Part shown: positions 30,825 to 36,916 of the stretch, piece by piece
Layout: every line of letters starts with the position of its first letter
Numbering within the stretch: position 1 is the stretch's first letter
NCBI RefSeq assembly: GCF_023008545.1
Contig: NZ_CP095397.1
Location: 2,108,001-2,172,000, forward strand
Direction of reading: 5' to 3'
DNA length: 64,000 bases
Source: Natribaculum luteum
Lineage (GTDB): Archaea > Halobacteriota > Halobacteria > Halobacteriales > Natrialbaceae
The notes under the pieces: generated by a model
What the model was told of the DNA's origin: nothing
Database searches by the model: none
What the model saw: only the letters and a program-made list of their open reading frames with translations
Position numbers and translations under genes: made by a program

Positions 30825-31706
30825 TTAGAGTAGGCCGGTCTTCTGGAGCTTCATCAGGTCCTCGGTGTCGAGGGTCTCGCCTTCCTTGAACTTCTGGTAG
30901 ATCTCCTCGGCCTCGGCCTTGGCCTCCTCTTTTTTCTTGTCGCGGGCGGACTTGCGCTGTTTCTCCTCTTTCTTGTCCAGCTCGCGCAGGCGCTTCTGGA
31001 CGCGGACGAAGTCCTCGTGGTGCTGGTCGGCCGCCTCCTGGGCATCGACGAACTTCTCGTGCATCTCGTCGGCCTCGTCACGGATGTCGTCGGCCTCGCG
31101 ATAGGCCTCGATCATCTGGTTGTGGTGTTCCTGGGCCTTGTCGGCGAGTTCCGTGACCTTCTGGTGGTGCTGGGAGGCCTCCGATCGGACCTCTTCGGCT
31201 TCCTCGACGAGCTCTTCGAGGTCCTCGTTCTGGTCGAGTTTCTCCTTGCGGTCTGCGTACTCCTCGCGTTTGGCCTCGATCTTCTCGATGAGCTCGCGCT
31301 CCTCTTCGGTCGAGAGGACCTCGGTCTGCTGTTTGAACTCGAGTTGCTCGATCTCTTCTTCGAGTTCTTCTAAGTCCTTGCCCTCGTCGAGCTCCATGTC
31401 CGACTTGAGCTTCTCGACCTTGTCGAACAGCTCGTTGGCCTCGGCGTTGAGCTCGTTGCGCTTTTCTTTGTGCTCCTGGACCTTCTCGTTGAGCTCGTCG
31501 CGCTTCTCGCGGTGCTCCTGAGCCTCGTCGACTTTCTCGCGCGTCTTCGCGTTGAGTTCGTCGCGCTTCGACGCGCGTTCAGAAGCCATCTGGTTCAGCT
31601 CGTTTCGTCGGTCTCGGAGTTGCCCGGCCTTTTTGATGAGCTGTCCTTTGGATTTGTTCTCGAGGTCGTCCTCTGTAAGTTCGATGTTTTTCGCTTCGTC
31701 TACCAT
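30825..31706 (-). CDS. Archaeal coiled-coil protein (COG1340 / DUF7121 type)
   Basis: The protein has 293 residues, nearly all predicted coiled coil, with heptads rich in Glu, Lys, Leu and Arg (for example EHKEKRNELNAEANELFDKV). It has no membrane segment. The C-terminal end EEIYQKFKEGETLDTEDLMK is conserved in the archaeal COG1340 family, whose molecular role is not established. The lysine content is unusual for a halophile and is required by the charged heptads. The spacer upstream (31707-31950 region) holds nothing I can identify apart from the next gene's end. Confidence 0.85.
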   Translation of the reverse strand: MVDEAKNIELTEDDLENKSKGQLIKKAGQLRDRRNELNQMASERASKRDELNAKTREKVDEAQEHREKRDELNEKVQEHKEKRNELNAEANELFDKVEKLKSDMELDEGKDLEELEEEIEQLEFKQQTEVLSTEEERELIEKIEAKREEYADRKEKLDQNEDLEELVEEAEEVRSEASQHHQKVTELADKAQEHHNQMIEAYREADDIRDEADEMHEKFVDAQEAADQHHEDFVRVQKRLRELDKKEEKQRKSARDKKKEEAKAEAEEIYQKFKEGETLDTEDLMKLQKTGLL

Positions 31707-31950: not shown

Positions 31951-33810
31951 TTATAAGCCGTATAGGTTGTAGACTGTTCGACCGCCGACCGACAGTTCGA
32001 GGCGGACCTCGCTTGCGTCGGCGGGAATCTCGAGTCTACCGGCGTCGGCAACCTCGAGTGGGTCGGCGTCTACCTGTTGTTCGCCGTCGTTCTCGCCGGC
32101 CCACCACCGGACGGTCGTCTCCACGCGCTCGCGCGTGTCGTTGACGAGCGAGAAACCGACGGTGCCGGGTGCAGGCGGCGACTCGAGGACAGCCTGGACC
32201 GGCTCGTAGGCGGTGGCCATCGCCTGGTACGCCGGCTTCTCCGCGCCGTCGTTCGTGAGGACGCCCGGTCCACCACCTGGCGCGGCGTCTCGCAACGGCG
32301 AGGCGACGACGATCCCACAGCCGCGCCTCCGGAGGGCTTCGGCGATCGTCTTCGTCGCTCTCGCCTGGTACGTTCGCGACTGTGCGGCCGTCTCCACCCA
32401 TCGCTCGAGGAGTTCCCCGTCGACGCCCGGAACCCGATCCGGATCGACGCGCTCGCTCGACAGCGAGGCGGGACCGAAGCCGCTGACTGCGGACGACAGC
32501 GAGGGGTACCGGTCGAGCAGCCAGTCGACATCGCTAGCCTCGAGGTACTGCCAGCCCAGGCCGAGAATCGCGGCGTCCGGATCGACACCGAGCGGCCCGG
32601 TGATGGGGACGACCGGGACGTCCTCGGGCAGTGCCGCCGCGATGGTCTCGGCATCGCTCCCGTCGAAGTCGGTTCGCCACGCCCGCCACCGTACGGCCAG
32701 TTTCGCGAGACGGCCGCTGCCGAGTGGCTCCTCGAACGGGTCGACCGTGGCGGTCTGGACGCCGTACATCGCCAGACTCGGATGGGTGCCGTACTCCTCG
32801 ACCAGAGTCGTTGCGAGGTCGATCCCGCGGTCGACGTCGAGGTCGGGGCCACTCGCCGGCAGGTCCTGCCAGACGAGCAGTCCAGCCTCGTCACACGCGG
32901 CGTAGAAGTCGCGAGAGGGAACGTGCGCCTGCGGGCGGACGATCGTCGCGTTCGCGTCGACGGCACGCCGGACGTCCTCGCGTTCGTCGCCGCCGGGCAG
33001 TCGGGTGAAACCGCGCGCACGCACCCGGCGGCCGTTGACGAGGAGACCGTCCTCGTCGCGCTCGATCGTTCGAAGACTGACCGTTCGCTCTGCCACGTCG
33101 TCCCCGAGTTTCGCCCGGATCGTGTACCGGGCCTGGGGACCGAGTTCGCGGGGCCACCACAGCGACGGGTTTCGGATCTCGAGCGTCTTCGAGACGCGCG
33201 CGCGCTCGCCGGCGTCGGCCGCAACTCGAGTGCGTTCCATCGATCCGGCACCGCGGACCCCTTCGGGTCGCAGCGAGAGCGTCACCGCGTCGTCGATCGC
33301 TTCACCCGCGTCCACCTCGAGGTCGACGTCGACGGATGCGCCGTCGTCGGAAAGCCGTGGCGTGGCCACTACCTCCCGGAGGAACGTCGGCGGTCTGGCC
33401 TCGATGGAGACGTCCCACCAGATGCCAGGAACGGCGAGTTCGTCCGGAACGGCCGCGGTGTCGTAGATTCCGTCGACCGACGCCGGCGGTTCGCAGACGA
33501 CGAGCAGTTCGTTCGTCTGGCGAGGTTCGAACTCGAACCGGGTTGGTACGAAGTACGGTCCGGCAATGTCTCGCCGAGTGCCGTTCACCCAGACTCGAGC
33601 CTGCCCGTAGACGCCGCGTAACTCGAGGATCGCTCGCTCGTCGCCGTCGGTTCGCGGATCGTCGAACCTGGTCCGGTAGGCGATCGAACCGTCGGCGTCC
33701 GCGAGTCCCGACGGTCGTCCTGGAACGGGGACGGTCCTCCACTCGTCGACGATCGGCGGATCGTCACCATTTCCCGATTCGACCACGCCACCTGTCCACT
33801 TCCCGGCCAT
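31951..33810 (-). CDS. GH2-fold protein resembling beta-mannosidase but lacking both catalytic glutamates
   Basis: This is a 619-residue protein with the GH2 domain order: N-terminal sugar-binding-like domain, immunoglobulin-like domain, barrel with the characteristic DFYAACDEAGLLVWQDLPAS block (residues 301-320), and a C-terminal beta domain. Active GH2 enzymes have an Asn-Glu acid/base after HPS-LA-x-W; here residues 343-356 read HPSLAMYGVQTATV with no Glu. The nucleophile site, normally Ser-Glu-Phe-Gly, is SGFG at 443-446. It is probably a non-catalytic carbohydrate-binding protein or regulator. A CCTATTTT box on the minus strand at 33833-33840 supports the start. Confidence 0.75.
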   Translation of the reverse strand: MAGKWTGGVVESGNGDDPPIVDEWRTVPVPGRPSGLADADGSIAYRTRFDDPRTDGDERAILELRGVYGQARVWVNGTRRDIAGPYFVPTRFEFEPRQTNELLVVCEPPASVDGIYDTAAVPDELAVPGIWWDVSIEARPPTFLREVVATPRLSDDGASVDVDLEVDAGEAIDDAVTLSLRPEGVRGAGSMERTRVAADAGERARVSKTLEIRNPSLWWPRELGPQARYTIRAKLGDDVAERTVSLRTIERDEDGLLVNGRRVRARGFTRLPGGDEREDVRRAVDANATIVRPQAHVPSRDFYAACDEAGLLVWQDLPASGPDLDVDRGIDLATTLVEEYGTHPSLAMYGVQTATVDPFEEPLGSGRLAKLAVRWRAWRTDFDGSDAETIAAALPEDVPVVPITGPLGVDPDAAILGLGWQYLEASDVDWLLDRYPSLSSAVSGFGPASLSSERVDPDRVPGVDGELLERWVETAAQSRTYQARATKTIAEALRRRGCGIVVASPLRDAAPGGGPGVLTNDGAEKPAYQAMATAYEPVQAVLESPPAPGTVGFSLVNDTRERVETTVRWWAGENDGEQQVDADPLEVADAGRLEIPADASEVRLELSVGGRTVYNLYGL

Positions 33811-34004
33811 CGTCTCGGTGAGCGAACCCCGGCAAAATAGGTGTTTCGAAGCTTGTAGTAATCAAAATAAATATTATCTAATATGAAATGAAGGAGCGCG
33901 TCGTGATCCGGTCCGTCGTCGCGGGCCGCGCGCTGCCGTCGATCACGCGGGGCGTCGCCACGATGGCCGGCCGACTCCTGGTACCTCGTATCGACGCATG
34001 GTGG

Positions 34005-34048: not shown

Positions 34049-34073
34049 CTTCGCCATGTACTCCCGAGATGAG

Positions 34074-35129
34074 ATGAACAATCGAGCGACGAGTAGTGAG
34101 AGATCGCCTCGAGGAACGAACAGCGCGGATCGTCGACGGTGGTCCCGCCGTCGATTCGTTGCGACCGCCGGTGGATTCGCGACCGCCGGGCTCGCGGGGT
34201 GTCTCGGCGGTGCCAGCGACGAGGATGGGGCGGACGTCGTCGCCTCGTTTTTCACGTTCTACGACTTCGCACGGCAGGTCGTCGACGGGACGCCTGTGAC
34301 GGTCGACAACCTCGTCCCGACCGGGCTGCACGGACACGGCTGGGAGCCGGACTTCGGGATCACGAGCGACATCGTCGAGGCGGACGGGTTTCTCCACGTC
34401 GGCCCCGACTTCCAGCCGTGGGCCGATCGGGCGATCGAGACCGTCCAAGATGACGACGCCGATACGCACCTGATCGACGCCCGAGAAGGGATCGAACTGA
34501 TGGATCTCCCGGACACCGTCGACGAGGACGAACAGGTCGGCGAGGGGAAAGATCCGCACTTCTGGCTCGATCCGGGCCTCGCCAAGGCGTCGGTCGACAA
34601 CATCGTCGACGGGCTCGTCGAAATCGCGCCCGACCACGAGGACGCCTTCGTCGCCAACGCCGCCGACGTCAAAGCCGAACTCGACGAGATCGACGCCGAG
34701 TGGGAGGGGATCTTCGACGCCGCCGAACGCAAGACGGTCTTTCTGGCGGCACACAACGCCTTCGGCTACGTCGGCGAGCGATACGGCGCGACGATCCAGC
34801 CGCTGGTGACCAACCTCGCGGCGACCGACGACGTCCGACCGGCGGACATGCGGCGTGCCCGCGAGACGATCGACGACAACGATATCCAGTACATCGGCGC
34901 GGCGATCTTCGAACCTCGTCGTCCTGCCCAACAGTTGCGCGAGAGCACGGACGTCGAGGCCTACTATCCGGTCACGCCGTACGCCGGCACGAAAGAGGAG
35001 TGGGTCGACCGCGGCTGGGGATACTTCGAGATCGCCCGGAACATCAACATGCCGACGTTCCGGATCGTGCTGGAGGCGATGGACCCCGACGGTACCGAAT
35101 TCGACGACGAGTGGCAGAACTTCGAATGA
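34074..35129 (+). CDS. Metal ABC transporter substrate-binding lipoprotein (ZnuA/MntA-like)
   Basis: This 351-residue secreted lipoprotein has a twin-arginine signal (SRRRFVATAGGFATAGLAGC) with a lipobox cysteine. The mature part has the cluster A-I metal-binding pattern: His in GLHGHGWEPD, His in DPHFWLDPGLA, His in FLAAHNAFGYVGERYG and a final acid near AAIFEPRRPAQ. It captures zinc or manganese outside the membrane. The ATG at 34074 matches the TATA spacing; an ATG at 34056 is also in frame. The adjacent ATPase and permease genes complete the transporter. Confidence 0.85.
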   Translation: MNNRATSSERSPRGTNSADRRRWSRRRFVATAGGFATAGLAGCLGGASDEDGADVVASFFTFYDFARQVVDGTPVTVDNLVPTGLHGHGWEPDFGITSDIVEADGFLHVGPDFQPWADRAIETVQDDDADTHLIDAREGIELMDLPDTVDEDEQVGEGKDPHFWLDPGLAKASVDNIVDGLVEIAPDHEDAFVANAADVKAELDEIDAEWEGIFDAAERKTVFLAAHNAFGYVGERYGATIQPLVTNLAATDDVRPADMRRARETIDDNDIQYIGAAIFEPRRPAQQLRESTDVEAYYPVTPYAGTKEEWVDRGWGYFEIARNINMPTFRIVLEAMDPDGTEFDDEWQNFE

Positions 35130-35135
35130 CCAGAC

Positions 35136-35906
35136 ATGAGACACGACACAGACAACCGAACGACGGCACACGTGACGGTCGACGACCTCTCGTTTGGCTA
35201 CACGGCCAGTCCGGTCGTTAGAGACGTCTCCCTTACCGTCGAGGAAGGCGAGTACGTCGGAATTATCGGGCCTAACGGCTCCGGCAAGAGTACGCTTCTC
35301 CAGCTGGTACTTGGCCTGCACGAACCCGACCGTGGCGACGTCCGGCTGTTTGGCCACCCCTCGAGGGCGTTCGTCGAGCGCGAGCGAGTCGGCTACGTCG
35401 CCCAGGACGTCACCGAGAACACCAAGGAGATGCCGATCACCGTCGCGGAGGTCGTGCTGATGGGACGGTTCCCACACGCCGGCTTCGGCCGCATCAAGAC
35501 GACAGATCGCGAACGCACACGCGAGGCACTCCGGACGGTGGGGATCGAGCACCTGGCCGACCGGCGCATCACGAAACTCTCTGGCGGACAGCGCCAGCGG
35601 GCGTACATCGCCCGCGCGCTCGCCAGCGAAGCCGAACTGCTCGTCCTCGACGAGCCGACCGTCGGCGTCGACGCCGAGTCCGTCGCAGCCTTCTTCGACC
35701 TGCTCGACGACCTCAACGACGACGGGATGACGATCCTGCTGGTCGAACACGACATCGGGGCCGTCCTCGAGCACACCGATCGCGTGATCTGTCTCAACCG
35801 GGAGGTGTACTTCGACGGGCCGCCGGACGAGTTCGTCGAAACCGACGCACTCGAGCGCGCCTACGGAACCGACCTCCGCCGCCGATCAGAGGCGAGCGCG
35901 CTATGA
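35136..35906 (+). CDS. Metal ABC transporter ATP-binding protein
   Basis: A 256-residue ABC ATPase. Walker A is GPNGSGKS at residues 45-52, the signature is KLSGGQRQRAYIARA, Walker B is LLVLDEPTVGVD and the switch histidine is in LVEHDIGAV. It powers uptake of zinc or manganese with the permease that starts four bases before its stop. The closest functional relatives are ZnuC and MntB. Confidence 0.92.
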   Translation: MRHDTDNRTTAHVTVDDLSFGYTASPVVRDVSLTVEEGEYVGIIGPNGSGKSTLLQLVLGLHEPDRGDVRLFGHPSRAFVERERVGYVAQDVTENTKEMPITVAEVVLMGRFPHAGFGRIKTTDRERTREALRTVGIEHLADRRITKLSGGQRQRAYIARALASEAELLVLDEPTVGVDAESVAAFFDLLDDLNDDGMTILLVEHDIGAVLEHTDRVICLNREVYFDGPPDEFVETDALERAYGTDLRRRSEASAL

Positions 35907-36916
35907 CTGCGATCACGGCACACACGTTCGCAACCGCCGGCTCTGCCCTCGTCGGTCAACTCGGCGCCCCGACCGACGCGCTGGGCTGGCTGCTCGACCG
36001 CTGGAGCGACGGGCTGTCGGCTGTCGGCGAGGCGTTCGGGATCGAGATGCTCCGGTACGGATTCATGCATCGGGCGTTTCTCGTCGGTGCCCTCATCGCC
36101 GTGATGGCACCGCTGATCGGTACGTTCCTCGTCCACCGACAGCTCGCGCTGATCGGCGACGCACTCGCCCACACCGCCTTCGCCGGCGTCGCGGTCGGCC
36201 TGTTCGTCAACGCCGTCCTCGGCGTCGGCGTCTCGCCGTACCTCACCGCAGTCGTCGTGGCGATGATCGCCGCGCTCGCGATCGAGCTGATATCTGAGGT
36301 CACGGACGCCTACAACGACGTCTCGATGGCGATCGTGCTCTCGACTGGGTTCGCGCTCGGTGCCGTCCTGATCAGTATCAACGCGGGTGGGCTCGCCGTC
36401 GGCGTCAATCAGTACCTCTTCGGCAACCTCGCGACGGTCTCGCGGGAGAATGCGATGATCCTGATCGGCCTCTTTCTCGCGATCGTCCTCGTCGTCGGCC
36501 TCACCTACAAGCAACTGCTGTACGTGACCTTCGACGAGACCGCCGCCAGAGTTGCCGGCGTCAACGTCCGCTGGTACAATCGAATTATGACGATGCTGAC
36601 CGCGATGGTCGTCGTCGGCGCGATGCAAATTATGGGCGTCATCCTGGTCGCGGCGATGCTCGTCGTTCCAGTCGCCGGCGCAGCCCAGCTGGCCCGGAGC
36701 TTCAGGGAGGCGCTGCTCGCGTCGGTCGTTCTCGCCGAACTGGCGGTGCTCGCGGGCATCACGCTCGCCTACCAGTACGAGGCGACGGCCGGCGGCACGA
36801 TCGTCCTCGTCGCCGTCGCGATCTACGTCATAGCCGTCCTGGTCGGGAAAGCGAAGGCGAGCCGGGAACCCGCCGCAGAGACGCGCTCGATCGCCGACGG
36901 ACAAACTTCGGACTGA
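35903..36916 (+). CDS. Metal ABC transporter permease
   Basis: A 337-residue membrane protein with about eight helices of the ABC-3 family (ZnuB/MntC type), including LVHRQLALIGDALAHTAFAG and the AVGVNQYLFGNLATVS region. It forms the channel for zinc or manganese. Its start overlaps the ATPase stop (ATGA), showing coupling. The C-terminal tail is hydrophilic and not conserved. Confidence 0.9.
   Translation: MTAITAHTFATAGSALVGQLGAPTDALGWLLDRWSDGLSAVGEAFGIEMLRYGFMHRAFLVGALIAVMAPLIGTFLVHRQLALIGDALAHTAFAGVAVGLFVNAVLGVGVSPYLTAVVVAMIAALAIELISEVTDAYNDVSMAIVLSTGFALGAVLISINAGGLAVGVNQYLFGNLATVSRENAMILIGLFLAIVLVVGLTYKQLLYVTFDETAARVAGVNVRWYNRIMTMLTAMVVVGAMQIMGVILVAAMLVVPVAGAAQLARSFREALLASVVLAELAVLAGITLAYQYEATAGGTIVLVAVAIYVIAVLVGKAKASREPAAETRSIADGQTSD

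Follow-up and report, generated by a model that had tools for sequence, protein, structure and literature searches.

A haloarchaeal GH2-fold protein that has lost both catalytic residues, probably a pseudoenzyme under selection

The gene and its locus

The window, the whole 64,000-nucleotide stretch of Natribaculum luteum DNA that we analysed, carries on its minus strand an intact ORF (31951..33810) that starts with ATG and encodes 619 residues. We annotate it as a GH2-fold pseudoenzyme gene from the ORF, its Pfam domain, its AlphaFold (AF2) model and its matches to GH2 structures in the PDB. All the sequence blocks quoted in a sequence-only reading of this DNA were found in the 619-residue product, including CDEAGLLVWQDLPAS, HPSLAMYGVQTATV and SGFG, and the ORF is real. 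The GH2 sandwich domain PF00703 was the only Pfam domain above the cut-off (E 7e-9). The GH2 catalytic domain PF02836 gave no match above the cut-off; it was also silent in two nucleophile-bearing orthologues tested, so this profile generally misses the GH2-like clade. By the same profile, the window's own genome has zero canonical GH2 catalytic domains. NCBIfam gave weak partial matches to beta-galactosidases and beta-glucuronidases, and the top PDB sequences were GH2 beta-mannosidases. No secretion signal was evident by eye at the N-terminus, and the protein is probably cytoplasmic.

The close relative Natribaculum breve has a copy that is 94% identical. Two TATA-like words, TTTATTTT at -61 and TATTTT at -29 from the ATG (33834..33871, minus strand), are kept in N. 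breve, and the region upstream of the gene is conserved in Natribaculum. The earlier suggestion that the gene has its own TATA box thus stands for the words themselves, with a putative promoter role.

Downstream, on the same strand and after a gap of ~240 bp, lies a gene for a DUF7121 coiled-coil protein (30825..31706, minus strand), a group that we take to be named COG1340. DUF7121 follows the GH2-like gene in 89 of 92 loci and occurs in 292/292 class genomes, nearly always as a single match, and it was the slowest-evolving of eight genes measured (dN/dS 0.05). A sequence search gave no DUF7121 relative of known structure. Natrialbaceae that lack the GH2-like gene have cetZ ~280-520 bp before DUF7121, and no remnant is seen; the GH2-like gene therefore occupies a stable locus in some genomes and not in others. 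Gene order makes DUF7121 a candidate partner of the GH2-like protein. However, because DUF7121 is universal, the adjacency may simply reflect that stable locus, and with the ~240 bp gap and the TATA-like words before the GH2-like gene, the neighbourhood is no proof of partnership.

A znuA-znuC-znuB-like metal uptake operon (34056-36916, plus strand) separates the GH2-like gene from cetZ. We discarded a zinc link through this operon, as among the scanned loci znuA occurs there in the two Natribaculum species alone. Immediately upstream of the GH2-like gene, 18 loci from four families have a short ORF on the same strand (for example L049:5437-5877, minus strand); it has no Pfam match and could be either a small gene or a shadow ORF. 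Across the conserved neighbourhood we saw no sugar genes.

The family is confined to haloarchaea (92 loci studied). Searching 292 class genomes, we found matches at E 0.001 in 120, the weakest being ordinary GH2 enzymes, and long orthologues in about one third. In a profile search of 247 phylum genomes, strong matches were confined to the window's order. Presence is patchy, and the gene is missing cleanly from relatives, with no remnant. All loci but one have an open frame. At L098:3174-5123 (genome G176, family f6) the gene is in two frames, split near residue 340, through either a frameshift or an assembly error.

Fold and catalytic positions

The AlphaFold model of the window protein is confident (pLDDT 93.4, pTM 0.93) and has eight barrel strands. 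It keeps the beta-sandwich, Ig-like, (beta/alpha)8-barrel and C-terminal all-beta regions. The model, matches by Foldseek and VIA across residues 1-619 and a profile-profile alignment (hhalign E 3.8e-63) all place the protein in the GH2 multidomain fold. The closest PDB structures were GH2 beta-mannosidases and CapGH2b (Z 28-33). The beta-mannosidases (PDB 6byc/6byi, 2je8) share the domain order, the fold over the full length (VIA Z 28.6, 586 aligned; Foldseek E 1e-34) and the WQD, HPS and C-terminal motifs. They differ in length (~860 residues, against 619), are ~20% identical, and have the nucleophile, acid/base, loop-2 Trp/His and loop-6 aromatic that the window protein lacks. The top VIA match was CapGH2b, a redox-regulated GH2 glycoside hydrolase (PDB 9npf, 9nfe; Z 33.5, 554 aligned, rmsd 3.5). 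We took the Glu residues mutated in its E465A and E553Q entries as its catalytic pair; unlike in CapGH2b, both positions are non-acidic in the window protein.

According to a 2025 survey of the GH2 subfamilies, the nucleophile is an invariant Glu, the strand 2 Arg is conserved, and the acid/base, the loop-2 His and the loop 6 and loop 8 aromatics vary; the loop-2 His and loop-6 aromatic border the -1 subsite (PMC12243196). Altered acid/base sites are known, namely Ser-Asp in GH2_16 and a different Glu in GH2_21, and there are GH2_19 members with TV, NA or NQ, their activity untested (PMC12243196).

Three mappings located these positions in the window protein. When the protein was aligned to eight genuine GH2 enzymes from bacteria, T353-A354 (codons 32749..32754, minus strand) fell on the Asn-Glu acid/base pair and G444 (codon 32479..32481, minus strand) on the nucleophile Glu. 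The profile-profile alignment, which set 90 orthologues against 13 GH2 sequences taken from the fetched loci, gave the same two columns (576 columns). The AlphaFold model places T353-A354 at the end of barrel strand 4 (346-353) and G444 at the end of strand 7 (441-444), where GH2 enzymes carry their catalytic residues; the structure prediction proposed as a check thus agreed with the alignments. The sequence-only reading was therefore right that the Asn-Glu pair and the nucleophile Glu are both gone. The window protein has neither Asn-Glu nor a known substitute at strand 4, and no Glu at the end of strand 7. N. breve has the same TA and the same G, so sequencing error is not the cause. The double catalytic loss is real, shared and predates the species.

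Pocket residues across the family

Comparison with orthologues showed that the loss, though common to N. breve, is not family-wide. The acid/base pair reads DD in 44 of the 90 orthologues, DE in 15, NE in 5 and another pair in 26; the nucleophile column holds Glu in 35, Gly in 18, Ala in 18 and other residues in 19. Canonical NE and a nucleophile Glu occur together in 0/90. Five orthologues (L026-L029, L043) have canonical Asn-Glu as acid/base but Ala as nucleophile.

E444 is retained in 33 orthologues outside the window's clade, about one third of the family. Their pocket is near-invariant: R292, H294, H296, D316, G321, H352-D353-D/E354-P355, Y417, W420 and D508. With the nucleophile Glu and this His/Asp-Asp/Tyr pocket kept, these proteins may be active enzymes that use Asp as acid/base. 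GH2_16 exo-beta-glucosaminidases, with Ser-Asp for Asn-Glu, show that Asp can take the acid/base place in GH2 (PMC12243196), a precedent for the orthologues that carry DD; GH2_16 retains its nucleophile Glu, whereas the window protein has lost both residues.

In the window's clade (n=32), columns 294, 319, 320, 352, 354, 417, 444 and 515 are variable or changed. R292, W314-Q315, R374, R376, G405, G408, W420, Y422 and D508 are retained, and D316 and D508 are acidic in at least 94% of the clade. R292 (codon 32935..32937, minus strand), the conserved GH2 strand 2 Arg (PMC12243196), is present in the window protein and invariant in 90/90 orthologues. Position 294, Gln in the window protein (codon 32929..32931, minus strand), is His in 33/33 nucleophile-bearing orthologues outside the clade and has lost His in 51/55 without the Glu. 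The loop-6 aromatic position, G417 (codon 32560..32562, minus strand), is Tyr in the same 33/33. Hence, of five GH2 pocket features in register (Arg, His, Asn-Glu, loop-6 aromatic and nucleophile), the window protein retains the Arg alone, if residue 294 is the loop-2 His. A second His, H296, is retained two residues further on; the register of the loop-8 aromatic is uncertain. A column comparison found no new conserved acid in the clade. The idea of an active site preserved apart from its two catalytic positions did not hold up: with most of the pocket lost in the window's clade, a two-site lesion is too narrow a picture. Two window-clade sequences with Glu at column 444, L023 (VTVEMG) and L062 (VGEVEV), have neither the EFG context nor H294; misalignment or coincidence probably explains their Glu.

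We compared column entropy in the clade (n=32) with the E set, defined by column 444, which was itself left out; the catalytic face was defined from strand ends, not model coordinates. Fisher tests asking whether lost invariant columns are enriched on this face gave no significant result (p 0.20 and 0.29). A graded test, run after them and to be read accordingly, showed the catalytic face of the clade to be more relaxed than the other barrel columns, with mean entropy changes of +0.19 and -0.14 respectively (Mann-Whitney p 0.0022, or p 0.0003 when limited to columns that the E set conserves); these p-values are a guide, since columns share ancestry and are not independent. His at 294 accompanies the Glu in 33/35 rows and occurs in 4/55 without it; with relatedness allowed for, 3/6 independent pairs agree and 0 are opposite (p 0.25), so that a coupling of H294 with E444 is suggestive.

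Repeated losses under purifying selection

On a quick tree (LG+G4), we count at least nine changes in the nucleophile column and five in the acid/base column, numbers that are approximate because long branches meet (f8 with f10). If Glu is taken as ancestral, as in GH2 generally, these changes are mostly losses. Between the window and N. breve, dN/dS was 0.18 for the GH2-like gene, 0.05 for DUF7121 and 0.28 for znuA; other close pairs of the window's clade gave 0.17-0.31. Across the family, close pairs without the nucleophile had values of 0.14-0.32 and those with it 0.14-0.20. Low dN/dS in nucleophile-less pairs indicates that the dead forms are not simple pseudogenes. The window protein thus combines lost catalytic residues with purifying selection, as a pseudoenzyme does.

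In one genus (f8 g43; L099-L106, eight sequences, 552-561 aa), the strand 6-7 region has no aligned counterpart, and here too the gene is under purifying selection (dN/dS 0.18-0.25). A model of one member had pLDDT 85 overall, with block means of 42-88 over residues 350 to 470, where strands partly replace helices. As modelled, the barrel half that bore the nucleophile is remodelled in this genus.

Discussion

We consider the window protein, with a probability of about 0.62, to be a GH2-derived pseudoenzyme under selection that probably binds a ligand or a partner. Its ancestor would have been a haloarchaeal GH2 enzyme with a nucleophile Glu and an Asp or Glu acid/base. Catalysis would have been lost in the common ancestor of the window's clade and on several further occasions. 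The remaining fold would serve for binding: the remnant pocket (R292, H296, D316, W420, Y422, D508) would take a ligand, or the protein would have a protein partner, for which gene order makes DUF7121 the first candidate. The retained non-catalytic role proposed earlier fits a GH2 fold without both catalytic residues, a dN/dS of 0.18 and homologues in many haloarchaea; it does not extend to the whole family, as about one third of orthologues may be active. Against a selected binding role, the gene is dispensable, with a clear orthologue in about one third of class genomes.

That patchiness, the lack of any remnant between cetZ and DUF7121 in relatives, the one frameshifted copy (L098) and the drifting catalytic columns would also suit a gene losing its function, decaying slowly after catalytic loss and deleted lineage by lineage. 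We regard this as improbable, because dN/dS without the nucleophile is not far above that with it, frames are open in all loci but one, and conservation in Natribaculum extends upstream of the gene. A lectin-like glycan sensor, a role suggested in the sequence-only reading and a specific version of the binding reading in which sugars are bound by the remnant pocket, is possible, and the six conserved pocket residues and the binding of one sugar unit by GH2 pockets speak for it. The loop-2 His and loop-6 aromatic that border the -1 subsite are lost (PMC12243196), however, the conserved neighbourhood shows no sugar genes, and nothing points to glycans over a protein partner or another ligand, which makes this version slightly more doubtful still than decay.

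The account that seems least probable to us is that the protein is still an active enzyme but works by a different mechanism, with other acids (D316 and D508, for example) or a bound cofactor. In its favour, both residues are still acidic in nearly all of the clade, and altered acid/base sites have precedents in GH2_16 and GH2_21 (PMC12243196). But the GH2 nucleophile is described as invariant (PMC12243196), the clade has gained no new conserved acid, and the loop-2 His and loop-6 aromatic went along with the nucleophile. A broader proposal, unlikely as a whole though less so than any of these, is that the family spans a range from a likely active His-Asp-Asp enzyme to a partly remodelled barrel, with several independent nucleophile losses at one fixed locus and dead forms that have acquired a conserved role with DUF7121.

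Our literature search found no papers on GH2 pseudoenzymes or on DUF7121. Heparanase-2 and beetle pseudo-polygalacturonases are likewise reported as members of glycosidase families that no longer catalyse (PMC12406646, PMC6549527); they are animal proteins of other families, neither GH2 nor archaeal. Dead glycosidase relatives are usually met one at a time. The GH2-like gene, at a single locus, instead presents active sites that look intact, are partly lost or are wholly lost in related genomes, which makes the step from enzyme to binding protein testable by comparing neighbours. For surveys of haloarchaeal genomes, the family is a caution that its genes should not be counted as beta-galactosidases or mannosidases. 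The universal, unstudied DUF7121 protein gains a testable candidate partner.
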